In this document: positions 2,309 to 15,549 of the stretch, piece after piece | How positions within the stretch are numbered: the first letter of the stretch is position 1 | Layout: each line of letters begins with the position of its first letter | Assembly: GCF_002161055.1 (NCBI RefSeq) | Contig: NZ_NFLT01000003.1 | Coordinates: 186,001-250,000, forward strand | DNA length: 64,000 nt | Direction of reading: 5' to 3' | DNA from: Tyzzerella sp. An114 | GTDB taxonomy: Bacteria > Bacillota > Clostridia > Lachnospirales > Anaerotignaceae | Translations under genes and position numbers: made by a program | Notes under the pieces: model-generated | Databases searched by the model: none | The model's input: the letters and a program-made list of their open reading frames with translations, nothing else | What the model was told of the DNA's origin: nothing

Positions 2309-4072
2309 ATGATAAAAACTTTATTCGGTCAGGTTAAGCAGTATAAAAAAGTATCTATATTGACACCTACTTTCACAGCTCTTGAAGTTTTAATGGAGGT
2401 TCTTATACCTTTTATTATATCTGCTATAATAGACCAAGGAATTTCAAAGGGAGATATGAGCAAAATTTACCTTTATGGTGGAATTATGATTGTAATGGCA
2501 ATGCTTAGCCTTTTGTTCGGAATACTTGCCGGAAAATATGCAGCAGATGCCTCATCAGGTTTCGCCTGTAATTTGAGAGATGGAATGTATACTAATATTC
2601 AGAATTTCTCATTCTCAAATATTGATAAATTCAGTACAGCAGGTCTTGTAACAAGAATGACAACAGATGTAACAAATATTCAGAATGCATACCAAATGAC
2701 ATTAAGAATTGCTGTAAGGGCACCTCTTATGTTAGTTTGTAGTCTTATAATGTGTTTCCTTATAAATGCAGAGCTTAGCCTTGTGTTTGTTGTTGCAATA
2801 TGTATACTTGGTTTATGTCTTGGACTTATTATGAAAAGTGCTATAAAAATATTTGATGTTGTATTTAAAAAATATGATGCACTTAATGCTAGTGTTCAGG
2901 AAAACGTAACAGCAATTCGTGTTGTAAAAGCTTTTGTAAGGGAAGATTATGAAAACGATAAATTTAAAAGTGCTGCAAATGAACTTTACAGACTTTTTGT
3001 AAAGGCTGAAAGTATACTTGCTTTCAATAGCCCAGTAATGATGCTTGTAATATATGGTTGTGTAATAGGTCTTTCATGGTTTGGTGCAAATCTTATTGTT
3101 GTTGGAGACCTTACAACAGGAGAACTTACATCAATGTTTAGTTATATTATGAGTATAATGATGTCACTTATGATACTTTCTGTGATTTTTGTTATGATTA
3201 CAATGAGTGCTGCCAGCGGAAGACGTATTGCAGAGGTTTTAAATGAAAAACCTGACATTGTAAATCCTGAAAATCCTGTAATGGAAATAAAAGACGGAAG
3301 AATAGATTTTAATCATGTTAATTTCCATTATAAACACGCTAATGATAAAGAAACTCTCACTGATATTGATATACATATAAAATCTGGCGAGACAATAGGT
3401 ATTATAGGTGGTACAGGTAGCGGAAAATCTAGTCTTGTTAATCTTATAAGCCGTCTTTATGATGTTGCTTCAGGTTCTGTATGTGTAGGTGGTATTGATG
3501 TAAGAGAGTATGACATGGAGGAACTTAGAAATAAAGTTGCTGTTGTACTTCAGAAAAATGTACTTTTCTCCGGTTCAATACTTGACAACTTGAGATGGGG
3601 TAAAGAGGATGCCACAGAAGAAGAATGTATTGAAGTATGCCGTCAGGCTTGTGCTGATGAGTTTATAGAACAATTCCCAAATAAATATAATACTCATATA
3701 GAACAGGGTGGTACAAACGTTTCTGGTGGTCAGAAACAGAGAATATGTATTGCAAGAGCACTTCTTAAAAATCCAAAAGTTCTTATACTTGATGACTCAA
3801 CAAGTGCTGTCGATACTGCAACAGATGCAAAAATTCGTCAGTCTTTCGCAAAGAAAATACCTGGTGTAACAAAAATTATAATTGCTCAGCGTGTTTCAAG
3901 TATTGAGAGTGCTGATAGAATAATTGTTATTGATGATGGAAAAATAAATGGATTTGATACCCATGAAAATCTTCTTAAAACAAATGATATTTATCGTGAA
4001 ATATATGAAACTCAGGTAAAAGGTGGAGGAGACTTTGACCAACCTGGTAAAGACGGAAAGGCAGGTGCATAA
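2309..4072 (+). CDS. ABC exporter half-transporter, degenerate ATPase subunit
   Basis: Half-size ABC exporter: an N-terminal six-helix membrane domain (about residues 1-320) followed by a nucleotide-binding domain. Walker A is GGTGSGKS near residue 367 and the signature NVSGGQ is canonical. Walker B reads LILDDSTSAVD, with Asp in place of the catalytic Glu, and the H-loop reads IAQRVSS, with Gln in place of His. These changes mark the degenerate site of heterodimeric exporters such as BmrCD, LmrCD and TM287/288. The partner starts 2 bp after this stop and carries the intact residues. Substrates of the family are lipophilic drugs or peptides; the natural substrate here is unknown. The upstream MarR gene suggests drug-type induction. 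Confidence 0.9.
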   Translation: MIKTLFGQVKQYKKVSILTPTFTALEVLMEVLIPFIISAIIDQGISKGDMSKIYLYGGIMIVMAMLSLLFGILAGKYAADASSGFACNLRDGMYTNIQNFSFSNIDKFSTAGLVTRMTTDVTNIQNAYQMTLRIAVRAPLMLVCSLIMCFLINAELSLVFVVAICILGLCLGLIMKSAIKIFDVVFKKYDALNASVQENVTAIRVVKAFVREDYENDKFKSAANELYRLFVKAESILAFNSPVMMLVIYGCVIGLSWFGANLIVVGDLTTGELTSMFSYIMSIMMSLMILSVIFVMITMSAASGRRIAEVLNEKPDIVNPENPVMEIKDGRIDFNHVNFHYKHANDKETLTDIDIHIKSGETIGIIGGTGSGKSSLVNLISRLYDVASGSVCVGGIDVREYDMEELRNKVAVVLQKNVLFSGSILDNLRWGKEDATEEECIEVCRQACADEFIEQFPNKYNTHIEQGGTNVSGGQKQRICIARALLKNPKVLILDDSTSAVDTATDAKIRQSFAKKIPGVTKIIIAQRVSSIESADRIIVIDDGKINGFDTHENLLKTNDIYREIYETQVKGGGDFDQPGKDGKAGA

Positions 4073-4074
4073 AA

Positions 4075-5997
4075 ATGGCTGGAAATGCAAGACAGATGCA
4101 TGGACCAATGAGAGGTAGAGGCCCAAAACAAAAAGTTGAAAATCCGGGAAAAATAATGAAAAGACTTTTCGGATATATGCTTAAAAATTATAAATTACAA
4201 TTTTTTATTGTTGTTGTTTGTATTATAACAACTGCTGTTGCAACTCTTAGAGGAACACTCTTTATGAAATCTCTTATAGATGATTATATTGTTCCTATGA
4301 CACAGACACAAAATCCAGACTTTGCACCTCTTGCAAGTGCATTAAAACAGCTTATAACAATGTATGTAATAGGTATCATATGTGCCTATGCTTATAATAG
4401 AATTATGGTAAATGTAAGCCAAGGAACTATGAGAAAACTCCGTACAGACCTTTTCACACATATGGAGTCACTTCCTATAAAATATTTTGATACTCATGCT
4501 CATGGTGACATAATGTCTGTATATACAAATGACGTTGATACATTAAGACAGCTTATGAGCCAGAGTATACCTCAGACAATAAACTCATTAGTAACTATTG
4601 TTATAACTTTTGGAAGTATGATTGTACTTGATGTACCTCTTACACTTATAAGTCTTTTTATGGTAGGAGTTATGATGTTTACAACATCAAAAATAAGTAA
4701 AAAGACAGGTTTATACTTTGCAAATCAGCAAAGAGATTTGGGAAAAGTAAATGGTTTTATTGAAGAAATGATGGAAGGACAGAAAGTTGTAAAAGTATTC
4801 TGTCATGAAGAAAAAAGTATTGAGGATTTCAGAGAGTTAAATAATAAACTCAGAGAGAGTGCTTATAATGCTAATAAATTTGCCAACGTTATGATGCCTA
4901 TAAATGCGAACCTTGGTAATATAAGTTATGTAATATGTGCAGTTATAGGTGCTATGCTTGCTCTTACAGGTATTACAGGTCTTACATTGGGAAGTCTTGT
5001 ATCATTCTTAACACTTAATAAGAGCTTTACACAGCCTATAACACAGATAAGCCAGCAGATGAACAGTATTGTAATGGGTATGGCAGGAGCTAGCCGTGTA
5101 TTTACTATGCTTGATGAAGTTCCTGAAGTTGATGAAGGATATGTTGAGCTTGTAAATGCTAAAGAGGGCATTGACGGAACTATAACAGAGACAAAAGAGC
5201 GTACAGGTGTATGGGCTTGGAGACATCCTCATAAAGCTGAGGGAACTGTAACATATACAAAACTTGAAGGTGATGTTACATTTAATGATGTTGATTTTGG
5301 ATACAATGATGAAAAAATTGTACTTCATAATATTAAACTTTTTGCAACACCAGGACAGAAAATTGCCTTTGTAGGTAGTACAGGTGCAGGAAAAACTACA
5401 ATAACAAATCTTATAAACCGTTTCTATGATATACAGGACGGAAAAATAAGATATGACAATATAAATATAAATAAAATTAAAAAAGCTGACCTTAGACGTT
5501 CTTTAGGTATGGTTTTACAGGATACACATCTTTTTACAGGAACTGTAATGGATAATATAAGATATGGAAGACTTGATGCAACTGATGATGAGTGTATTGC
5601 AGCAGCAAAACTTGCCAATGCAGATGGTTTTATAAGACGTTTACCAGATGGATATGATACAATGCTTACTGGAGACGGTGGAAACTTAAGTCAGGGACAG
5701 AGACAGCTTTTAGCAATAGCAAGAGCAGCTGTTGCAGACCCTCCAGTATTAATTCTCGATGAAGCTACATCATCAATTGATACAAGAACAGAAACTCTTG
5801 TTCAGCAGGGTATGGATAGACTTATGCAGGGAAGAACAACATTTGTTATTGCCCATAGACTTTCAACTGTAAGAAACTCTGATTGTATAATGGTTCTTGA
5901 GCAGGGAAGAATTATAGAAAGAGGAACTCATGACCAGCTTATAGAAGAAAAAGGAAAATACTATCAGCTTTACACAGGAAACTTCGCAGAAGAATAA
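4075..5997 (+). CDS. ABC exporter half-transporter, catalytic ATPase subunit
   Basis: Partner half-transporter of 640 residues. A basic Gly/Pro-rich N-terminal tail is followed by six membrane helices and an NBD. Walker A is GSTGAGKT near residue 435. The signature is the variant NLSQGQ. Walker B is LILDEATSSID with the catalytic Glu, and the H-loop is IAHRLST with His. The protein therefore supplies the competent Walker residues, while its non-standard LSQGQ signature faces the degenerate site of the partner. Between the membrane domain and the NBD lies an insertion of about 40 residues (near 360-400, Trp-rich WAWRHPH), longer than in the partner. It is co-transcribed with the preceding gene. 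Confidence 0.9.
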   Translation: MAGNARQMHGPMRGRGPKQKVENPGKIMKRLFGYMLKNYKLQFFIVVVCIITTAVATLRGTLFMKSLIDDYIVPMTQTQNPDFAPLASALKQLITMYVIGIICAYAYNRIMVNVSQGTMRKLRTDLFTHMESLPIKYFDTHAHGDIMSVYTNDVDTLRQLMSQSIPQTINSLVTIVITFGSMIVLDVPLTLISLFMVGVMMFTTSKISKKTGLYFANQQRDLGKVNGFIEEMMEGQKVVKVFCHEEKSIEDFRELNNKLRESAYNANKFANVMMPINANLGNISYVICAVIGAMLALTGITGLTLGSLVSFLTLNKSFTQPITQISQQMNSIVMGMAGASRVFTMLDEVPEVDEGYVELVNAKEGIDGTITETKERTGVWAWRHPHKAEGTVTYTKLEGDVTFNDVDFGYNDEKIVLHNIKLFATPGQKIAFVGSTGAGKTTITNLINRFYDIQDGKIRYDNININKIKKADLRRSLGMVLQDTHLFTGTVMDNIRYGRLDATDDECIAAAKLANADGFIRRLPDGYDTMLTGDGGNLSQGQRQLLAIARAAVADPPVLILDEATSSIDTRTETLVQQGMDRLMQGRTTFVIAHRLSTVRNSDCIMVLEQGRIIERGTHDQLIEEKGKYYQLYTGNFAEE

Positions 5998-6008
5998 TTT
6001 TTAAAATG

Positions 6009-6039
6009 GAGACACAAATTTTTGTGTCTCTATTTTTTT
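6009..6039 (+). terminator. Intrinsic terminator after the ABC exporter operon
   Basis: Stem GAGACACAAA/TTTGTGTCTC with a short T loop, followed by TATTTTTTT, placed 12 bp after the exporter stop codon. Confidence 0.9.
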
Positions 6040-6212
6040 GCCTATTATTCACAATTAAAAAATATTATTCTACAAAAAATGACACTTTGAATTGTGCATA
6101 TTATATAATTTTATTCTATTTTAACATGAAAAGAAGGAGAATTATTACAAGTGTAGAATATATATATTATAAAATTAATTTTGACTTAACTATATAAGGG
6201 AGGTACATATAT

Positions 6213-8294
6213 ATGAGAAGTTATACTGCGAATGAAGTTAGAAATGTTGTTTTACTGGGGCACAGCGGCTGTGGAAAAACAACCATAGCCGAGGCAGCAC
6301 TTTTCCATTCAGGTGCTACTAAAAGACAGGGCCGTGTTGAAGACGGAAATACTGTAAGCGACTATGATGCAGAAGAAATCCGCCGTAAAGTATCCGTTAG
6401 CACTTCTGTGCTCCCTATTGAGTGGAAAGATACAAAAATAAATTTACTTGATACTCCTGGTTATTTTGATTTTGTAAGTGAAGTTAAACTTGCTATGAGC
6501 GTAGCAGATACCGCCCTTATTATAGTATCCGCAAAATCAGGTCTTGAAGTTGGTACAGAAAAGGCTTGGGAATATGCTGAAGAAATGAAAATCCCTAAAA
6601 TGTTCTTTATCAACCAGATGGATGATGACAGTGCGGACTTCCGTAAAACCCTTGAAGAACTTCGTGACAAATTTGGAAAAGTTGTTGCTCCTTTACAGGT
6701 TCCTTTCAGAGATGAAAATGGTATTTTAGGCTTTATAAATGTAATAAAGAGAGATGCTAGAATGCTTGACACAGCCACTGGAAAACTTATTAAATGTGAT
6801 ATTCCTGCTGATAAAGTTGATGAAGTTGAAGAACTTCGTGCTATGGTTGTTGAAGTTGCAGCTGAAAGTGATGATGAACTTTTGGAGAAATATTTCAATG
6901 ATGAAGAGCTTACTCTTGAAGAAATATATCTTGGACTTAAAAAAGGTATTAGACAGTTCTCAATAGCTCCTGTAATATTTGGTTCAGCTACAAAGGGTTA
7001 TGGAATTAAACTTCTCATGAGCACATTAGTTAAGTTTATACCACCATCAGAAGAATGTCGTCCATCATTTGAATGTATAGACCTTCGTCGTGGTGAAAAT
7101 GAAGGTATGATACGTTATAACTCAGAAAAAGAACATCTTGCTTGTTTCGTATTTAAGACAATTTCTGACCCATACGTTGGAAGACTTAATATTTTCAGAG
7201 TTGTTTCAGGTACAATTAATAATACAAAAACTGTTTATAATCCAGAGACTGACACTTATGAAAAGGTTGCTCATCTCTATGTTATGAGAGGAAAAGAACA
7301 GATTGAAGTTGATGAGCTTAATGCTGGTGATATTGGAGCATTAGCTAAACTTACAAATACATCAACACAGCATACACTTTGTTCAAAATATTTCCCTGTT
7401 CTTCTTCCAAAAATCGACCTTCCAAAACCTGTTCTCTCAATGGCTATTGCTCCTAAGGGAAAAGGTGATGAGGATAAGATTTCAAATGCTCTTGCAAAGA
7501 TAAAAGAAGAAGACCCTACATTAAAAGTAGAAGTAAACAAAGAAACAAAACAGACTATAATTACAGGCATAGGCGAAAATCAGCTTGATGTTGTTGTAAA
7601 TAAACTTAAAACAAAATATAAAATTGAAGTTGAGCTTTCAGACCCTATTATTCCTTACCGTGAAACTATTAAATCAAAAGTTAAAGTTCAGGGTAAATAT
7701 AAGAAACAGTCTGGCGGACATGGTCAGTTTGGTGATGTTTGGATTGAATTTGAACCTTCATTCGATATGACACAGTCCTATGTATTTGAAGAAAAAATAT
7801 TTGGTGGTGCTGTTCCTAAACAGTATTTCCCAGCTGTTGAAAAAGGTTTACAGGAATGTGTTCAGAGTGGTGTTCTTGCAGGATATCCAGTTGTAGGACT
7901 TAAAGCTACTCTTGTTGATGGTAGCTATCACCCAGTTGACTCATCTGAAATGGCATTCAAGATGGCAACATCTGTTGCTTTCAAAGAAGGTCTTCCACAG
8001 GCAAAACCTGTAATTCTTGAGCCTATTGTTCATGTTGAGGTTACAATACCTGATAAATACATGGGCGATATTATGGGAGACATTAATAAGAGACGTGGTC
8101 GTATACTCAGTATGAACCCTGAAAATGAGAAAAAACTTATTGTTGCAGAAGTTCCTCTTGCTGAAATGCAGAAATATGCTACTGACCTTCGTTCTATGAC
8201 ACAGGGTAGAGGTTCTTATGAATATTACTTCGAGCGTTATGAAGAAGCTCCTATGGATGTTCAGAAAAAAATAATTGAAAGCAGAAAGAAATAA
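6213..8294 (+). CDS. EF-G-like translation GTPase (paralogue)
   Basis: Translational GTPase of 693 residues with the full EF-G layout. The G domain has P-loop GHSGCGKT (residues 12-19) and DTPGYFDF for G3. Domain II, domain III, domain IV with the GGHGQFGD segment, and a C-terminal domain V (PDKYMGDIMGDINKRRGRI) follow. The G4 motif is NQMD rather than the usual NKxD. The gene stands alone with its own terminators rather than in a str operon (rpsL-rpsG-fusA-tuf), so it is probably the EF-G paralogue (EF-G2-like) and not the housekeeping factor. Whether it acts in translocation, recycling or stress is not known. A GGGAGG ribosome site precedes the ATG. Confidence 0.88.
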   Translation: MRSYTANEVRNVVLLGHSGCGKTTIAEAALFHSGATKRQGRVEDGNTVSDYDAEEIRRKVSVSTSVLPIEWKDTKINLLDTPGYFDFVSEVKLAMSVADTALIIVSAKSGLEVGTEKAWEYAEEMKIPKMFFINQMDDDSADFRKTLEELRDKFGKVVAPLQVPFRDENGILGFINVIKRDARMLDTATGKLIKCDIPADKVDEVEELRAMVVEVAAESDDELLEKYFNDEELTLEEIYLGLKKGIRQFSIAPVIFGSATKGYGIKLLMSTLVKFIPPSEECRPSFECIDLRRGENEGMIRYNSEKEHLACFVFKTISDPYVGRLNIFRVVSGTINNTKTVYNPETDTYEKVAHLYVMRGKEQIEVDELNAGDIGALAKLTNTSTQHTLCSKYFPVLLPKIDLPKPVLSMAIAPKGKGDEDKISNALAKIKEEDPTLKVEVNKETKQTIITGIGENQLDVVVNKLKTKYKIEVELSDPIIPYRETIKSKVKVQGKYKKQSGGHGQFGDVWIEFEPSFDMTQSYVFEEKIFGGAVPKQYFPAVEKGLQECVQSGVLAGYPVVGLKATLVDGSYHPVDSSEMAFKMATSVAFKEGLPQAKPVILEPIVHVEVTIPDKYMGDIMGDINKRRGRILSMNPENEKKLIVAEVPLAEMQKYATDLRSMTQGRGSYEYYFERYEEAPMDVQKKIIESRKK

Positions 8295-8304
8295 TATAAA
8301 TAAT

Positions 8305-8330
8305 AAAAGCGTACCTTATGGTACGCTTTT
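8305..8330 (+). terminator. Intrinsic terminator after the EF-G-like gene
   Basis: Stem GCGTACC/GGTACGC with a TTAT loop flanked by AAAA and TTTT, just after the stop codon. Confidence 0.85.
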
Positions 8331-8375
8331 ATGCTATTATATATTTATTGATAAATAAAAAAGGAGATGATTTTT

Positions 8376-9230
8376 TTGATAGATGTAGCAGTAATAGGAG
8401 CAGGACCAGGGGGACTTTCAGCAGCAGTTTCAGCTTTACAGAGAAACAAAAGTGTTACTATATTTGGAAGAAGTATAGACTCAGGACTTTTATTTAGTGC
8501 TAAAGAGGTTGACAACTATTTAGGTATGCCTAATATGACTGGTGAAGATATGTTAAATGCCTTTTTTAGCCATGCTATAAATAAAGGAGCAGAGTTTAAA
8601 GAGTGTAGAGTTTCTCAAATACTTTCAATGGGTGATTATTTTATGATTAATGCTGAAAATGAGTTTTTTGAAGCAAAAACAATAATACTTGCCCTCGGTG
8701 TTAATAAAAGTAGAACAATAAAGGGAGAAGAAGAACTTATAGGAAAAGGCGTAAGTTATTGTGCTACTTGTGACGGTATGCTTTACAGAAATAAAGATGT
8801 ATTTGTTGTTGGAGAGACAACAGAAGGTGAGGCAGAGGCAAACTATTTAGCTTCAATAGGTTGTAATGTTTCATATATTCCTTTGTATAAAGACTTAATC
8901 CATATTGATGATAAAGTAAATATTATTAGAGGTAAAGCTAAAAGTGTTTTGGGAAATGAATATGTTGAAGGAATAGTTGTAAATGGTGAAGAAAAGCAGT
9001 GTAATGCTGTGTTTTTTGCAAAAAAGACAATGCCTGTTGCAAGTCTTATGTTTGGTCTTGAAACAGAAAATAACTCAATAAAAGTTGACAGAAATATGTG
9101 TACTAATATAACAGGAGTTTATGCTTGTGGAGATTGTACAGGTGCACCTTTCCAAGTTTCAAAGGCTGTGGGAGAAGGTCTTGTTGCTGCTTTAAGTGCT
9201 GCAAAATATATTGAAGATAATCAAAAATAA
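8376..9230 (+). CDS. Thioredoxin-reductase-like flavoprotein lacking the NADPH motif
   Basis: Flavoprotein of about 284 residues resembling thioredoxin reductase. It has the FAD dinucleotide motif GAGPGGLSAA at the N-terminus, the redox pair CATC, and the C-terminal FAD motif ACGDCTGAPFQVSKAVGEG. The second dinucleotide site, normally GGGxSAxEEA followed by HRRxxxR, reads VVGETTEGEAEA followed by PLYKDLIH. Both the Gly cluster and the arginines that hold the NADPH phosphate are absent. This loss is known in ferredoxin-dependent flavin thioredoxin reductases (FFTR), described from Clostridium and Gloeobacter, so ferredoxin is a plausible donor (inference). The TTG at 8376 lies 9 bp after GGAG and is preferred; the in-frame ATG at 8367 abuts the ribosome site. 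Confidence 0.8.
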   Translation: MIDVAVIGAGPGGLSAAVSALQRNKSVTIFGRSIDSGLLFSAKEVDNYLGMPNMTGEDMLNAFFSHAINKGAEFKECRVSQILSMGDYFMINAENEFFEAKTIILALGVNKSRTIKGEEELIGKGVSYCATCDGMLYRNKDVFVVGETTEGEAEANYLASIGCNVSYIPLYKDLIHIDDKVNIIRGKAKSVLGNEYVEGIVVNGEEKQCNAVFFAKKTMPVASLMFGLETENNSIKVDRNMCTNITGVYACGDCTGAPFQVSKAVGEGLVAALSAAKYIEDNQK

Positions 9231-9252
9231 AGATTAACAAAAATTTTACAAT

Positions 9253-9294
9253 GGACAAAATCCTTATAAATTCGGGGTTTTGTCCTATTTTTTT
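9253..9294 (+). terminator. Intrinsic terminator
   Basis: Stem GGACAAAATCC against GGGGTTTTGTCC (one offset base in the lower part), followed by TATTTTTTT. It separates the flavoprotein gene from the two-component pair. Confidence 0.8.
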
Positions 9295-9306
9295 AAGTAT
9301 GTTAGA

Positions 9307-9334
9307 TTGACAAAAAAGTGTGAATTGTTATGAT
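9307..9334 (+). promoter_or_regulatory. Promoter of the two-component operon
   Basis: TTGACA at 9307-9312 and TATGAT at 9329-9334 with a 16-bp spacer, directly upstream of the response regulator gene. Confidence 0.65.
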
Positions 9335-9366
9335 ATTGTTAAATAATATTAAAAAGGAGAATAAAA

Positions 9367-10077
9367 ATGTCAAAAAAAAATATATTAACAGTTGATGACG
9401 AGATACATATTCTTGAATTATTAAGATATAATCTTGAAACTGCAGGATACAATGTTATTCAGGCTGAAAGTGGAGAGGAAGGACTTGAAATATTAGACAA
9501 AAATGATATTGATGCTGTTCTTTTAGACCTTATGCTTCCGGGGATTGATGGTCTTGAGGTTTTAAGAAGAATAAGAACAAATCCTGAAAAAAGAAAAACT
9601 CCTGTAATAATGCTTACAGCAAAGGGAGAAGAATTTGACAAAGTTTTAGGTCTTGAAATGGGTGCAGATGATTATATTGCAAAGCCTTTCAGTGTTAGAG
9701 AACTTCAAGCTAGACTTAAAGCTATATTAAGACGAGTTGATGACCAAAAAAATGAAAATGATAAAAAAAAGGTTAAAAAAATAAGTATTCATGGACTTGA
9801 AATTGGTTTAGAGACAAGAACTGTAACAATGAATGGTCAAGAAATAGAAATGTCTCATAAAGAATTTGAGCTTTTAAAACTTCTTGCAGAAAATCCGGGT
9901 AGAGTTTATTCAAGAGATATTCTCCTTGAAAAAATTTGGGGTTATGAGTATATAGGTGAGACAAGAACTGTTGATGTTCATATTCGACATATAAGAAAGA
10001 AAATTGAAGAAGATGACAGCAATCCTTTATTTATAAAAACCGTAAGAGGATACGGATATAAATTTAGAGAGGATTGA
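9367..10077 (+). CDS. PhoB/OmpR-family response regulator
   Basis: Response regulator of 236 residues. The N-terminal receiver domain has the acidic DDE cluster near residue 9, the phospho-acceptor Asp54 in LLDLMLPG, and the switch Lys in the IAKPF motif. A linker of charged residues (DDQKNENDKKK) leads to an OmpR/PhoB winged-helix DNA-binding domain in the C-terminal 100 residues, with the ETRTVDVHIRHIRKKIE recognition helix and a wing ending VRGYGYKF. It partners the histidine kinase gene that starts just after its stop. The pair resembles PhoB/PhoR or WalRK in architecture; no neighbouring phosphate genes confirm the signal. Confidence 0.9.
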   Translation: MSKKNILTVDDEIHILELLRYNLETAGYNVIQAESGEEGLEILDKNDIDAVLLDLMLPGIDGLEVLRRIRTNPEKRKTPVIMLTAKGEEFDKVLGLEMGADDYIAKPFSVRELQARLKAILRRVDDQKNENDKKKVKKISIHGLEIGLETRTVTMNGQEIEMSHKEFELLKLLAENPGRVYSRDILLEKIWGYEYIGETRTVDVHIRHIRKKIEEDDSNPLFIKTVRGYGYKFRED

Positions 10078-10082
10078 TAATT

Positions 10083-11846
10083 TTGAAGAAAAAACTTTTT
10101 CTTACTTATGTTCTTATAATACTTTTCATATCTAGTATAGCGGGATTTTTTTCAATACATCTTTATAGTGGTTTTTATAGAGAAGAATTTAAAAATCACC
10201 TTTTAAAAGAAAGTGACATACTTTCCGATATAATAAGGGAAGATGCAAATGATGTTACAGAAGAATATTTTGATAATTTTGTTGATATTTATAGTAAAAA
10301 ATTAGGCTGGAGAGTTACTGTTATAGACTCAAAGGGAAATGTTTTGGGAGACTCTGATGCTGAAAAATCACAGATGGAAAATCATCTTGATAGAAAAGAA
10401 GTTCAATCTGCTCTTAAAGGAAAACAGAGTGTTGAAATCCGTTACAGTAGCAGTATTGGTGCAGAATATATGTATTCTGCCTCTCCTGTTGAGATTAATG
10501 GAGAAATTATTATAATAAGACTTTCAGTTCCTCTTATATCCCTTCATGATATGCAAAGAAAAATTATGGGTTATATAATAGCTGGAATAATAATTGCTGC
10601 TGGAATGTCTTTTATATATGCTTATTTTCTATCAGATAAAATTTCAAAGCCTATTGATGAACTTACAAAGGCAGCTAGGGAAATTTCAGAAGGAAGATAT
10701 TCAAAAAGAATTGTAATAAAAAACAGTAATGACCAAATAGGAGAGCTTACAAATTCATTTAATTATATGAGTGAGCGTTTGACAGAGACAATAAACGCCC
10801 TTGAAAATGAAAATATAAAGTTGGAGTCTATATTAAATAGTCTTATGAATGGTGTTATTGCTGTTGATAATAATAATAATATACTTATGATAAATTCTGT
10901 ATTCAGAGAATTTTTTAAACTTCCTGAAGATGTTATAGGAAAAAATTTTTATGATGTAGTCAGAAATGAAAGTCTTTACTCCATAATGGAAGAAGTGCAA
11001 GAAAAAAATCATTATGTAGCCGATGAAGTTTGGTTTAAAGCTGTTATGGAAGAAACAAAAATATTAAGAATATATGCAGCACCTATTTCAGGAAAAAATT
11101 GTGGAACAGAAAATATAGGAAATCTTATAGTTTTCCAAGATGTAACACAGATAAGAAAACTTGAACAGATGAGAAGTGATTTTGTTTCAAATGTTACCCA
11201 TGAACTTAAAACTCCTTTAACTTCAATAATGGGATTTGCTGATACATTAAAAGAAGGTGCTATTGATGATAAAGACACAGCCCTTAAATTTATTGATATT
11301 ATAGAAATAGAGTCAAAGAGACTTTTTAGACTTATACAAGATATACTCTCACTTTCTGAAATAGAGACCAGAAAAGAAGATATAAATCAGGAATATTTTG
11401 ATATAAGTGAAATTATTGAAAGTGTTTGTCAGGTTCTTAAACCACAGGCAGATAATAAAAATATTGAACTTATAATAAGTGTTGATAAAAATCTTCCTAA
11501 ATTCAAATGTAATCGTGACAGGATTTCTCAAATGATGATTAATCTTATTGAGAATGGTATAAAGTATACTGAAAAGGGTAGTGTAAGAATTTCTTGTAAA
11601 AAAACAGGAAAATATATTGAAATAAATGTTAAAGATACAGGAATAGGAATACCAGAGGAGTCAAAAGAGAGAATATTTGAGAGATTTTATAGAGTCGATA
11701 AAGGTCGTTCAAGAAAAGCAGGAGGAACAGGACTAGGACTTTCAATAGTTAAACATATAGTGTTTTTGTATAACGGAAAACTTTGGGTTGAAAGTAAAAT
11801 GGGTAAAGGCTCAAAATTTGTTATACTTCTTCCTTTTGAACAGTAA
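10083..11846 (+). CDS. PhoR-like sensor histidine kinase
   Basis: Membrane sensor kinase of about 587 residues. A first helix (about 5-27) and a second near 160-185 bracket an extracellular domain. Then come a HAMP linker, a PAS domain (roughly 250-350), the dimerisation/phosphoacceptor helix with His373 in SNVTHELKTPLTS, and an HATPase domain with the N box (INLIENGIKY), G1 (DTGIGIP) and G2 (GGTGLGLSI). The TTG at 10083 is chosen because AGAGAGGA lies about 9 bp upstream; the alternative TTG at 10074 overlaps the regulator stop. It is translationally close to the response regulator, its cognate partner. The signal is unknown; the plan matches PhoR/PnpS-type kinases. Confidence 0.9.
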   Translation: MKKKLFLTYVLIILFISSIAGFFSIHLYSGFYREEFKNHLLKESDILSDIIREDANDVTEEYFDNFVDIYSKKLGWRVTVIDSKGNVLGDSDAEKSQMENHLDRKEVQSALKGKQSVEIRYSSSIGAEYMYSASPVEINGEIIIIRLSVPLISLHDMQRKIMGYIIAGIIIAAGMSFIYAYFLSDKISKPIDELTKAAREISEGRYSKRIVIKNSNDQIGELTNSFNYMSERLTETINALENENIKLESILNSLMNGVIAVDNNNNILMINSVFREFFKLPEDVIGKNFYDVVRNESLYSIMEEVQEKNHYVADEVWFKAVMEETKILRIYAAPISGKNCGTENIGNLIVFQDVTQIRKLEQMRSDFVSNVTHELKTPLTSIMGFADTLKEGAIDDKDTALKFIDIIEIESKRLFRLIQDILSLSEIETRKEDINQEYFDISEIIESVCQVLKPQADNKNIELIISVDKNLPKFKCNRDRISQMMINLIENGIKYTEKGSVRISCKKTGKYIEINVKDTGIGIPEESKERIFERFYRVDKGRSRKAGGTGLGLSIVKHIVFLYNGKLWVESKMGKGSKFVILLPFEQ

Positions 11847-11855
11847 CAATAAATA

Positions 11856-11887
11856 ATGTTAACCATCATAATAAAAATGGTTGACAT
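11856..11887. promoter_or_regulatory. BirA-like biotin operator in front of bioY
   Basis: Inverted repeat ATGTTAACC, 14-nt spacer, GGTTGACAT. This fits the Gram-positive BirA operator as I recall it (TTGTTAACC...GGTTAACAA type). The single deviation in the right arm (GGTTGACA) creates the -35 TTGACA of the bioY promoter, so biotin-loaded BirA would block RNA polymerase directly. The repeat could also fold as an RNA hairpin ending the kinase transcript. Confidence 0.75.
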
Positions 11888-11908
11888 TATTTATTTTGAT
11901 GTTATAAT
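11881..11908 (+). promoter_or_regulatory. bioY promoter
   Basis: TTGACA at 11881-11886 and TATAAT at 11903-11908 with a 16-bp spacer, a near-consensus sigma-A promoter. Its -35 lies inside the right arm of the BirA-like operator. Confidence 0.85.
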
Positions 11909-11934
11909 GTTTTCATAAGGAGATGATTTATATT

Positions 11935-12501
11935 ATGAAAACAAAAAATATGGTTATGTGTGGTCTTTTTGCGGCAATATTATGTTGTTGTGCAGCAATA
12001 ACAATAGTTTTACCTTTTACAGCTATTCCAATAACTTTTCAAGTTTTAGCAGTAAGCGTTGCCGGGGCTGTTATGGGCAAAAAGTACGGTGCTTTGTCTG
12101 TAATTATATATACACTTATAGGATTTTGTGGACTTCCTGTTTTTTCAGGAATGAAAGGCGGAGTTACTGCTTTAGCAGGTCCCACAGGTGGTTTTATAAT
12201 AGGGTTTATACCAGAAGCCTTTGTTACAGGTCTTATTGTTGAATTGATTGTTAAAAAAGAAGATAAAATACTTGTTAAGAATATTAAAATATTTTTTGCA
12301 ATGATTGTTGGACTTGTTGTTTTATATGCTTTTGGAACTGTACAGTTTATGTTTATGGCTAAAATCTCAGTTTTAAAAGCTCTTACATTGGCTGTTATAC
12401 CTTTTGTACCTCTTGATGTGGCTAAAATTGTTGTTGCTGTGGTTGTTTCGATTTTTGTTAAAAATAATATATATGGTACAAGTATAAATGAAGCGTCATA
12501 A
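11935..12501 (+). CDS. bioY: BioY, substrate-binding subunit of the biotin ECF transporter
   Basis: Integral membrane S component of about 188 residues that binds biotin for the energy-coupling-factor transporter. Six hydrophobic segments are visible, with the family core GVTALAGPTGGFIIGF near the middle. The EcfA/EcfT energising module is not encoded nearby and is presumably shared. The start is placed at ATG 11935; the upstream ATG at 11923 touches AAGGAG. It has its own promoter with a BirA-like operator and its own terminator. Biotin is needed by the acetyl-CoA carboxylase and pyruvate carboxylase encoded further along the window. Confidence 0.9.
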   Translation: MKTKNMVMCGLFAAILCCCAAITIVLPFTAIPITFQVLAVSVAGAVMGKKYGALSVIIYTLIGFCGLPVFSGMKGGVTALAGPTGGFIIGFIPEAFVTGLIVELIVKKEDKILVKNIKIFFAMIVGLVVLYAFGTVQFMFMAKISVLKALTLAVIPFVPLDVAKIVVAVVVSIFVKNNIYGTSINEAS

Positions 12502-12517
12502 TGACGCTTTTTTTTTG
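12491..12517 (+). terminator. bioY terminator
   Basis: Stem AAGCGTCA/TGACGCTT with a TAA loop that contains the bioY stop codon, followed by nine T. The hairpin overlaps the last codons of the gene. Confidence 0.9.
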
Positions 12518-12564
12518 TTAAATTTTATAGTAAAATATTAAAAAAGTTTTGGGAGATATGTAAT

Positions 12565-13641
12565 ATGGAAATTTCAGATATATTAAAGGGCATAAAACCT
12601 TTATATGATGATGCTTTAATAAAGGCTAAAAAATACAATGATAATCTTATAAAACCAATAGGAAGTCTTGGAAGACTTGAAGAACTTGCCATACAATTTT
12701 CTGGTATAACAGGTGAAATTTTTAACAGTATGGATAAAAAAGCTATAATAATTATGTGTGCTGACAATGGTGTATATTATGAAGGTGTCAGCACATCACC
12801 GAGAGAAGTAACAAAAATACAGGCTTTAAATTTTAATAAAGGTATAACAGGGGTTGCAGTTTTAGCAAAACAAGGCAATATTGATTTAAAGGTTGTTGAT
12901 TTGGGCATAGATGCTGATATTGATTATAATGAAGGAATAATAAATAAAAAAATAGCCTATGGAACTAAAAACTGTGCTAAAGGTGAGGCTATGACAGAAA
13001 GCCAGTTTAAAGAAGCTTTTATGGCAGGTTTTGAAATGGTAGGTCAGTTGAAAAAAGAAGGTTATAATATTATAGGTACCGGTGAAATGGGTATAAGCAA
13101 TACTACAACTTCAGAGGCTGTTATAACTGTTTTATGTGGTTGTAATGTGGAAGATACTGTGGGAAAAGGTGCTGGACTTACTGATGAAGGTTATAAACAT
13201 AAAATATCTGTTGTCAAAAAAATAATAGATGTAAATAAACCTAATAAATTAAATCCCTGTGAAGTTATACAAAAAGTAGGGGGATTTGATATTGCTGGAC
13301 TTATGGGAGTTTTTATAGGAGGAGCATATTTTAGAGTGCCTATTGTTATTGACGGTGTAATATCAATAGCGGCAGCTTTGGCAGCTTATAAACTCTGTCC
13401 TATATCTAAAGACTTTATGATACCTTCCCATATATCCTTTGAAAAGGGATATGGTATAGCCTCTAAAGAAATGGGATTAAGACCAATATTTGACCTTGAT
13501 ATGAGACTTGGAGAAGGCTCTGGCTGTCCTTTTACAATGTATATAGCAGAGTCGGCTGTAAGAATTGTAAGGGAAATGGTTTTATTTGATGATACAGAAA
13601 TTGACAAAAGTAAATATATAGACATAAGAGAGGAAAAATAA
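12565..13641 (+). CDS. cobT: CobT, nicotinate-nucleotide:dimethylbenzimidazole phosphoribosyltransferase
   Basis: Transfers phosphoribose from nicotinate mononucleotide to the lower-ligand base, giving alpha-ribazole phosphate for cobalamin. The protein is 358 residues, standard length. Family segments are present: KPIGSLGRLEELA near the N-terminus, the GTGEMGISNTTT loop, and the C-terminal LGEGSGCPF segment with the catalytic Glu region. It is the first of four consecutive cobalamin genes (cobT, cobU, cobS, cobC) with gaps of 5 bp or overlaps. The 63 bp before it cannot hold a cobalamin riboswitch. No corrin-ring genes are visible here, so the cluster may serve de novo synthesis elsewhere or salvage. 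Confidence 0.93.
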   Translation: MEISDILKGIKPLYDDALIKAKKYNDNLIKPIGSLGRLEELAIQFSGITGEIFNSMDKKAIIIMCADNGVYYEGVSTSPREVTKIQALNFNKGITGVAVLAKQGNIDLKVVDLGIDADIDYNEGIINKKIAYGTKNCAKGEAMTESQFKEAFMAGFEMVGQLKKEGYNIIGTGEMGISNTTTSEAVITVLCGCNVEDTVGKGAGLTDEGYKHKISVVKKIIDVNKPNKLNPCEVIQKVGGFDIAGLMGVFIGGAYFRVPIVIDGVISIAAALAAYKLCPISKDFMIPSHISFEKGYGIASKEMGLRPIFDLDMRLGEGSGCPFTMYIAESAVRIVREMVLFDDTEIDKSKYIDIREEK

Positions 13642-13646
13642 ATATT

Positions 13647-14195
13647 ATGATACTTGTAACAGGTGGAGCAAGAAGTGGAAAAAGTCTTTTTGCTGAAAAC
13701 AAAGCAAAAGATAAGGGTGAAAAAGTTTTATATATAGCAACTTCAATTCCCTTTGATGATGAAATGAAACTTCGTGTTGAATTACATAAAAAAAGACGTC
13801 CAAAAAGTTGGGATACTTTTGAGGGATTTAAAAATATAGAAAATGTTATATATGAAAATAAAGGCAAGTATGATTGTATGCTTTTTGACTGTATAACGAT
13901 TTATATTACAAATCTTATTTTTGAATATGCTAAAAATCCAGAAAATATGAGCAGAGAAGATTTTATTGATACAGAAAATAAAATAATTAATGATTTCAAA
14001 AATATAGTTAAATCTGTGAAAGATACGGACACAGAAATAATATTTGTCACAAATGAAGTTGGAATGGGTATTGTACCGGAAAATAAATTAAGTCGAAATT
14101 TTAGAGATATTGCAGGAAAAATCAATCAAATAGCAGTCCTTGAGAGTGATGAAGTTTATATGACTGTCTGCGGCATACCTATGAAAATAAAGTGA
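13647..14195 (+). CDS. cobU: CobU, adenosylcobinamide kinase/guanylyltransferase
   Basis: Bifunctional enzyme that phosphorylates adenosylcobinamide and adds GMP to give AdoCbi-GDP. P-loop GGARSGKS lies at residues 6-13. Family motifs follow: the SIPFDDEM stretch, the FDCITIYITNL strand, and TNEVGMGIVP before the C-terminal LSRNFRDIAGKINQ helix. At 182 residues it matches CobU/CobP. It lies 5 bp after cobT and runs into cobS. Confidence 0.93.
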   Translation: MILVTGGARSGKSLFAENKAKDKGEKVLYIATSIPFDDEMKLRVELHKKRRPKSWDTFEGFKNIENVIYENKGKYDCMLFDCITIYITNLIFEYAKNPENMSREDFIDTENKIINDFKNIVKSVKDTDTEIIFVTNEVGMGIVPENKLSRNFRDIAGKINQIAVLESDEVYMTVCGIPMKIK

Positions 14196-14206
14196 GGTTT
14201 AATTTA

Positions 14207-14956
14207 ATGAAGCTTTTTATATTGACAATGAGATTTTTGACAAGAATACCTATACCCTTTAATGATGATACAATACTTTCAAATGAAGAATTTTCAAAGG
14301 GTATAATTTACTATCCTTTTATAGGTCTTATAGTTGGAATTATAAATTGTATAGTTTTTAAAATTTTTGAATTTTCAGGAAGTTTATTTTTATCTTCTAT
14401 TTTAGCTGTTTTATCAGGAGTTATAGTTACAGGAGGTTTCCATATTGATGGTTTAGCTGATACTTGTGACGGTTTGTATTCTTCAAGAAAAAAAGAGAGA
14501 ATACTTGAAATTATGAGAGATAGCAGAGTTGGGACAAATGGTGCTTTGGCAATCATTTTTGATATACTTATAAAAATAAGTGTTATATACTCCCTTGGAT
14601 TTGACAAAGGAATTTTTGCTATTATACTTGCTCCTGTTGCTGGAAAAATGATTACACCTATATTATTTAACAGTAGATATGCTAGAACTGGAGAAGGACT
14701 TGGAAATATATATTTAAGGGAAAAATACGATTTTAGAAGTATTTTTACAATAATACTAGGAATGTTGATTATTGTATTATTTTTAAGAGAGTATGCTTTA
14801 ATACCTATAATAATATGTCTTTTAATGGGATTGATTTTTAGAAAACATTGTGAAAAAATAATCGGTGGAATGACAGGAGACACTCTTGGAGCAGGCTCTG
14901 AGATAGGTGAAATTATATTTATGATTGTGTATATTATGGAGGTTAATTTATTGTGA
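14207..14956 (+). CDS. cobS: CobS, adenosylcobinamide-GDP ribazoletransferase
   Basis: Membrane enzyme joining AdoCbi-GDP with alpha-ribazole (phosphate), the last assembly step. About 249 residues with several hydrophobic helices. The diagnostic acidic motif GGFHIDGLADTCDGLYSS is followed by the RVGTNGAL segment. ATG 14207 is preferred because GAGG lies 9 bp upstream; the GTG at 14192 would overlap cobU. The last 4 bp overlap the GTG start of cobC, indicating translational coupling. Confidence 0.93.
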   Translation: MKLFILTMRFLTRIPIPFNDDTILSNEEFSKGIIYYPFIGLIVGIINCIVFKIFEFSGSLFLSSILAVLSGVIVTGGFHIDGLADTCDGLYSSRKKERILEIMRDSRVGTNGALAIIFDILIKISVIYSLGFDKGIFAIILAPVAGKMITPILFNSRYARTGEGLGNIYLREKYDFRSIFTIILGMLIIVLFLREYALIPIIICLLMGLIFRKHCEKIIGGMTGDTLGAGSEIGEIIFMIVYIMEVNLL

Positions 14957-15549
14957 ATATTTATATGGTACGTCATGGACAAACTGAAATGAATGTTAAA
15001 AGGGTGTATTATGGAAGTACAGATTGTGACATAAACAGTACAGGAGTTTTACAGGCTGAAAAATTATCTGAATTTTTTAAAAATATAGATTTAGACATTA
15101 TAATATCATCAGACTTAAAAAGAGCCTATCACACAGCCCAGATAATAAAAGGTGATAGAAATATTGATATAGTCAAAGATGAAAGACTTAGGGAAATAAA
15201 TTTTGGTGATTGGGAAAATAGAACATTTAGCGATATAAGGGAAAATGACCCTGAAAATTATAAAATATGGACTAAAAATTGGCTTGATATAAAATTTCCT
15301 AATGGTGAAAGTTATATGGAGTTTGCAAGTAGAATAGAAAAAGCATTCTTTGATATAATAGAAAAATATAAAAATTGTAATAACATACTTATAACATCTC
15401 ACAATGGAACTTTGTCATCACTTCTCTGTACAGCCATAGACGCAGGACAGAAAAATTTTTGGCGATTTAAAATTGAGCATGGAACATATACAATGATTAG
15501 TGTAAATGATGGATATGCTATTTTAGAAAAATATAATTGCAATATATAA
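14953..15549 (+). CDS. cobC: CobC-type alpha-ribazole phosphatase (histidine phosphatase family)
   Basis: Histidine phosphatase of 198 residues. It has the catalytic RHGQTEMN motif near the N-terminus, the DLKRAYHTAQ phosphate pocket, and a second His in the ITSHNGTL motif. Position at the end of cobT-U-S and 4-bp overlap with cobS support dephosphorylation of alpha-ribazole phosphate. The fold is shared with phosphoglycerate mutases, so specificity rests on context. GTG start preceded by GGAGG. Confidence 0.87.
   Translation: MNIYMVRHGQTEMNVKRVYYGSTDCDINSTGVLQAEKLSEFFKNIDLDIIISSDLKRAYHTAQIIKGDRNIDIVKDERLREINFGDWENRTFSDIRENDPENYKIWTKNWLDIKFPNGESYMEFASRIEKAFFDIIEKYKNCNNILITSHNGTLSSLLCTAIDAGQKNFWRFKIEHGTYTMISVNDGYAILEKYNCNI

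Follow-up and report, generated by a model that had tools for sequence, protein, structure and literature searches.

The gene at positions 8376–9230 (plus strand) of the analyzed Tyzzerella sp. An114 DNA (64,000 nucleotides in total, hereafter the window) encodes a thioredoxin reductase-like (TrxB-like) flavoprotein in which the places of both NADPH-binding motifs are taken by other sequences. This raises the question of whether the protein reduces thioredoxin at the expense of NADPH or, as the initial annotation had proposed, belongs to the ferredoxin-dependent flavin thioredoxin reductases (FFTRs).

The FFTR-type gene and its neighborhood

The FFTR-type frame is intact, encodes 284 aa from an in-frame TTG at 8376 and ends with a stop codon at 9228–9230. 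The ORF finder placed the start three codons upstream, at ATG 8367, but this codon abuts the ribosome-binding site AAGGAG (8361–8366, plus strand), which was read directly from the sequence; therefore, the TTG codon, with a spacing of nine bases from AAGGAG, appears to be the better start, and the choice made in the initial annotation was retained. A terminator-like hairpin of 13 pairs was found at 8303–8332 (plus strand), in the interval between the gene of elongation factor G (EF-G) and the FFTR-type gene (folding energy of 8290–8345 of −21.6 kcal/mol, z = −6.42), which suggests that the FFTR-type gene is transcribed separately from that of EF-G and probably on its own. The NG86 estimates for the window gene were dN 0.153 and dS 1.20 relative to record L017, and dN 0.128 and dS 0.69 relative to record L020; judging by these sequence comparisons, purifying selection looks to be acting on it.

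The upstream neighbor encodes EF-G of the NF009381 subfamily (6213–8294, plus strand), and the downstream neighbor encodes an OmpR/PhoB-family response regulator (9367–10077, plus strand), for which the best model was YycF, with a score under its cut-off. The flanks of the FFTR-type records comprised at least 1.5 kb where the contig allowed; with some flanks ending together with the contig, EF-G was located directly upstream of the FFTR gene in 13 of the 29 other distinct records, and the response regulator came after it in 4 of the 29. EF-G of the same kind was also present in nine of the ten examined family genomes without FFTR (66–84% identity, E-value up to 1e-150). A functional link between FFTR and EF-G was set aside, since EF-G is kept in FFTR-less genomes and its gene is separated from the FFTR-type gene here by the terminator-like hairpin. 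A search for trxA (tblastn) and a motif scan for ferredoxins of the [4Fe-4S] type, both covering the window at 3001–15000 and the flanks of the 29 other records, gave no convincing candidate; the sole hit was a low-complexity frame of 45 aa in L045, which looks like chance.

Several further features of the region were recorded. The EF-G at 6213–8294 is one of two in the genome and is 39% identical to the other (G000:C56); its residues Cys195 and Cys549 were conserved in all 11 aligned rows (two of which represent one genome), which in itself proves nothing. Judging by eye from the translations, two adjoining ABC-transporter-like frames separated by a 2-base gap occupy 2309–5997, and frames resembling BioY, CobT and CobU (11923–14195) come after the two-component pair. 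The latter order is retained in L017 and L020.

Motifs and phylogenetic placement of the protein

The FAD dinucleotide motif GAGPGG (8397–8414, residues 8–13) and the redox-active CATC pair (8760–8771, Cys129 and Cys132, both invariant in an alignment of seven rows) are present on the plus strand, in agreement with the initial annotation, and were complemented by the C-terminal FAD-domain segment GDCTGAPFQ (9129–9155, plus strand), identified by alignment. GDCTGxPxQ or a near variant occurred in most FFTR-type rows, and GDxRxxxxRQ in most rows of NADPH-dependent thioredoxin reductases (NTR type). The second dinucleotide loop reads VVGETTEGEAEA (8805–8840, plus strand, residues 144–155), exactly as quoted earlier; it is degenerate and aligns to the glycine-rich loop of the NADPH-type enzymes, with GETTEG falling on the GxGxxA column. 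The segment PLYKDLIH (8880–8903, plus strand, residues 169–176) aligns in place of the HRRxxxR motif that binds the NADPH phosphate, with PLYKDL on the HRRxxxR column, so that the replacement of the Arg-rich motif noted initially was also borne out.

Among the FFTR-type rows (31 with the window protein counted and one genome represented by two pieces), neither GxGxx[AG] nor HRR was found in any, whereas in the NTR-type rows the two motifs were found in 40 and 30 of 41, respectively. As HRR was missing from 11 of the 41 NTR-type rows, its loss by itself is not diagnostic; the loss of the glycine motif divides the FFTR-type and NTR-type rows almost completely. The window protein carries GKG, a form of the GR/KG element present in 26 of the 31 FFTR-type rows. 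At the position of the cyanobacterial thioredoxin-binding FF, which is mostly FF in NTRs, it has LY, as do the structures 6gna and 6gnc; it ends in NQK, without Trp and without a tail of the cyanobacterial kind. According to the available text of PMC9025218, cyanobacterial FFTRs have CxxC, the FAD site and GR/KG in common with NTRs and lack the NADPH motif, and GR/KG and FF are given there as the thioredoxin-binding motifs of the cyanobacterial enzymes.

When the window protein was compared with all PDB chains by phmmer, 6gnc, 6gna and 6gnd ranked highest (243.6, 242.6 and 238.1 bits, respectively), followed by 4gcm, TrxB of Staphylococcus aureus, as the best NADPH-type enzyme (132.2 bits). 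By their PDB titles, both 6gna and 6gnc come from Clostridium acetobutylicum and are ferredoxin-flavin thioredoxin reductases, while 6gnd is an FFTR–thioredoxin complex; 6gnc and 6gnd also appear in Table A1 in the available part of PMC8469568. This table assigns 6GNC and 6GND to one isoform, CaFFTR2, although the 6gnd sequence in the phmmer alignments resembles 6gna (Ser at one redox Cys), not 6gnc. The identity of the window protein was 41.9% to 6gnc, 42.8% to 6gna and 28.2% to the NTR of its own genome.

Phylogenetic analysis was performed using TrxB-like proteins from six named records, from five PDB chains and from 60 genomes, which comprised that of the host and those of 59 relatives. 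In the maximum-likelihood tree of 78 rows, the window protein was grouped with 6gna and 6gnc into one clade of 30 rows (support 100/99), and a branch with support 100/93 set this FFTR-type clade, along with the TRi-like clade sister to it, apart from the rows of the NTR type. Clustered with the crystallized C. acetobutylicum FFTRs and not with the NADPH-type enzymes, the window protein is, as judged from its sequence, very probably a clostridial ferredoxin-dependent flavin thioredoxin reductase, in support of the initial reading. FFTRs have already been described in Clostridia, and the protein is an ordinary further member of that family. Like the C. acetobutylicum enzymes (6gna, 6gnc and 6gnd), it combines the FAD site, CATC, GK/RG, LY downstream of the redox pair and a PxYKD segment (PRYKDE in 6gna, PMYKDK in 6gnc) with loss of the NADPH motifs, as the alignment with characterized FFTRs and NADPH enzymes confirmed, and differs from them in sequence detail (GETTEG versus GYNKEA, for example).

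The AlphaFold model, built with the seven-row alignment, had a moderate mean pLDDT of 71.0. The six best E-values in the Foldseek search belonged to 6gnc, four chains of 6gnd, and 6gna; however, superposition on the FFTR crystals was poor (TM about 0.5, rmsd about 17), and for some NADPH-type chains the TM value was slightly higher, reaching 0.57, and the rmsd lower. The fold search therefore contributes little beyond the sequence comparison.

Alternatively, the window protein could be a disulfide reductase that shares this fold, works without pyridine nucleotides and uses another donor or acceptor in vivo, for instance flavodoxin, a small-molecule thiol or a partner different from TrxA, along the lines proposed for DDOR. 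Such an assignment could draw on the absence of trxA and of a [4Fe-4S] ferredoxin gene beside the FFTR-type gene and on the occurrence of several TrxB-like types in relatives, yet it appears improbable: both sequence and tree put the window protein with the C. acetobutylicum FFTRs, of which 6gnd was crystallized with thioredoxin, and GKG is kept, whereas DDORs lack the thioredoxin-binding motifs, as stated in the available text of PMC9025218.

It is still less probable, to the point of being very unlikely, that the protein is a thioredoxin reductase dependent on NADPH or NADH whose cofactor site has diverged. On TIGR01292, the NCBI model of thioredoxin-disulfide reductase, the window protein still scored 191.3 bits, and the canonical NTR of the same genome also fell just under the cut-off (341.2 versus 343.45 bits); together with the NTR-type rows devoid of HRR, this means that neither criterion alone is decisive. 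Nevertheless, 191.3 bits is far under 343.45, the second glycine motif is lost as in all FFTR-type rows and kept in almost all NTR-type rows, and the tree splits the protein from the latter at 100/93. An NADPH-type TrxB identity was consequently rejected on motifs, tree and TIGR01292 score.

The TRi of Desulfovibrio vulgaris (5nii) represents another atypical TrxB type, relatives of which occur in the host's family; for the window protein it ranked 18th in the PDB list (97.3 bits), and a TRi-type identity was rejected, as the protein falls outside the separate TRi-like clade of the 78-row tree (six rows, 100/100). The TRi-like sequences L050, L051, L052, L054, L055, L056 and L061 keep GxGxxA, lack HRR in all seven cases and have CAVC; L050, which trxA adjoins, had 5nii as its best PDB match (229.4 bits). 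The FFTR of Gloeobacter violaceus (5j60, 6xtf) has the same fold as the window protein and, according to the available text of PMC12796991, the same expected donor, and by the same source cyanobacterial FFTRs end in a tail that carries a stacking Trp; a cyanobacterial-type identity was rejected because of the lower score (5j60, 104.4 bits, below several NADPH-type enzymes) and the missing tail. AhpF was rejected at 117.1 bits against a cut-off of 502.9.

Putative electron route and partners in the genome

The host genome (G000, 2.75 Mb, 98.75% complete) was searched for the partners of such an enzyme and for a canonical trxB. The latter was found at G000:C34:61094; its product shares the fold, FAD site, CxxC and GR/KG with the window protein but has both GGGNTA and HRRDSFK. 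The window protein would therefore provide a second route of thioredoxin reduction, not the sole one. A TrxB-like weak match in the end fragment of contig C21 resembles, by eye, the end of the glutamate-synthase small chain. The genome contained one clear TrxA with WCGPC, one weak thioredoxin-domain match inside a longer frame, pyruvate:ferredoxin oxidoreductase (1972.2 bits) and, among 31 Fer4 matches, two ferredoxin-like frames (67 and 64 aa), each of which matched Fer4 twice. The beta subunit of ferredoxin:thioredoxin reductase (FTR; PF02943) gave no match in G000, and the same search was positive in two of 14 control genomes. The sporulation gene spoIVA was present.

By analogy with characterized homologs, ferredoxin is most likely the donor and thioredoxin the acceptor, with a domain swing between them. 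Pyruvate:ferredoxin oxidoreductase would reduce ferredoxin, and two reduced ferredoxins would donate one electron apiece to FAD; the CATC domain would rotate toward the flavin, which would reduce the CATC disulfide, and would then rotate out and reduce thioredoxin via dithiol–disulfide exchange. Electrons would in this way likely pass from pyruvate through ferredoxin and FFTR to thioredoxin, alongside the NADPH route. Domain movement and electron transfer from ferredoxin are described for the Gloeobacter enzyme in the available text of PMC12796991, where an FAD potential of about −448 mV is given and considered by its authors to favor ferredoxin over NADPH.

Distribution in the host's family

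According to the available text of PMC10880999, most of the surveyed Negativicutes and Clostridia carry an NTR plus a non-NTR enzyme, probably FFTR, and the FFTR TrxB1 of C. difficile has a role in stress survival and is present in spores. Genes of the FFTR, NTR and TRi-like types were tallied in 36 genomes of the host's family, including the host itself, within the 60 genomes overall. Most of the genomes are drafts, which makes absences provisional. The FFTR type was found in 19 of the 36 (in G003 as pieces on two contigs), alone in 12 and together with the NTR type in 7, while 7 genomes had the NTR type only, 5 the TRi-like type only, 1 the TRi-like and NTR types, and 4 none of the three; FFTR and TRi-like genes did not occur together in any of the 36. 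The four genomes with no FFTR-, NTR- or TRi-type match were G004, G006, G020 and G028 (completeness 96, 92, 68 and 71%, respectively). Nine of the 12 FFTR-only genomes had a completeness of at least 90%, and one, G035, is assembled into a single 3.1-Mb contig. Across all 60 genomes, FFTR was found in 27 and as the only type in 14.

In G025 (L115, contig G025:C37), which has an NTR-type gene and no FFTR, EF-G is followed directly, about 165 bases on, by a response regulator, the same one that lies beyond FFTR in the genomes G012 and G033 of the same genus. This empty site looks like a clean loss of FFTR, with gain in G012 and G033 as the alternative. The host and Candidatus Fimicola belong to one genus, as L017 (Candidatus Fimicola merdigallinarum) and G001, a genome from the host's genus, have identical FFTRs; in the NCBI taxonomy, Candidatus Fimicola is placed in Lachnospiraceae incertae sedis, Clostridia. 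The literature search returned no paper joining ferredoxin-dependent thioredoxin reductase with Lachnospiraceae; a 2018 account of the FFTR family reportedly exists in PNAS.

There is about an even chance that FFTR and NADPH-type TrxB substitute for each other in the host's family, some members having lost the NADPH enzyme and thus keeping their thioredoxin pool on ferredoxin alone, and others having lost FFTR, once cleanly between EF-G and the response regulator. For the gene studied here, the generic annotation that it would likely receive (thioredoxin-disulfide reductase, NADPH) could be replaced by that of a ferredoxin-dependent enzyme, and by analogy this spoIVA-bearing anaerobe may be able to reduce thioredoxin straight from fermentation electrons. 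If mutual substitution holds, the family would represent a natural experiment on whether ferredoxin alone can sustain thiol homeostasis in gut anaerobes. The way in which the NTR, FFTR and TRi types are distributed over related genomes could be used to probe the need for each reductase.
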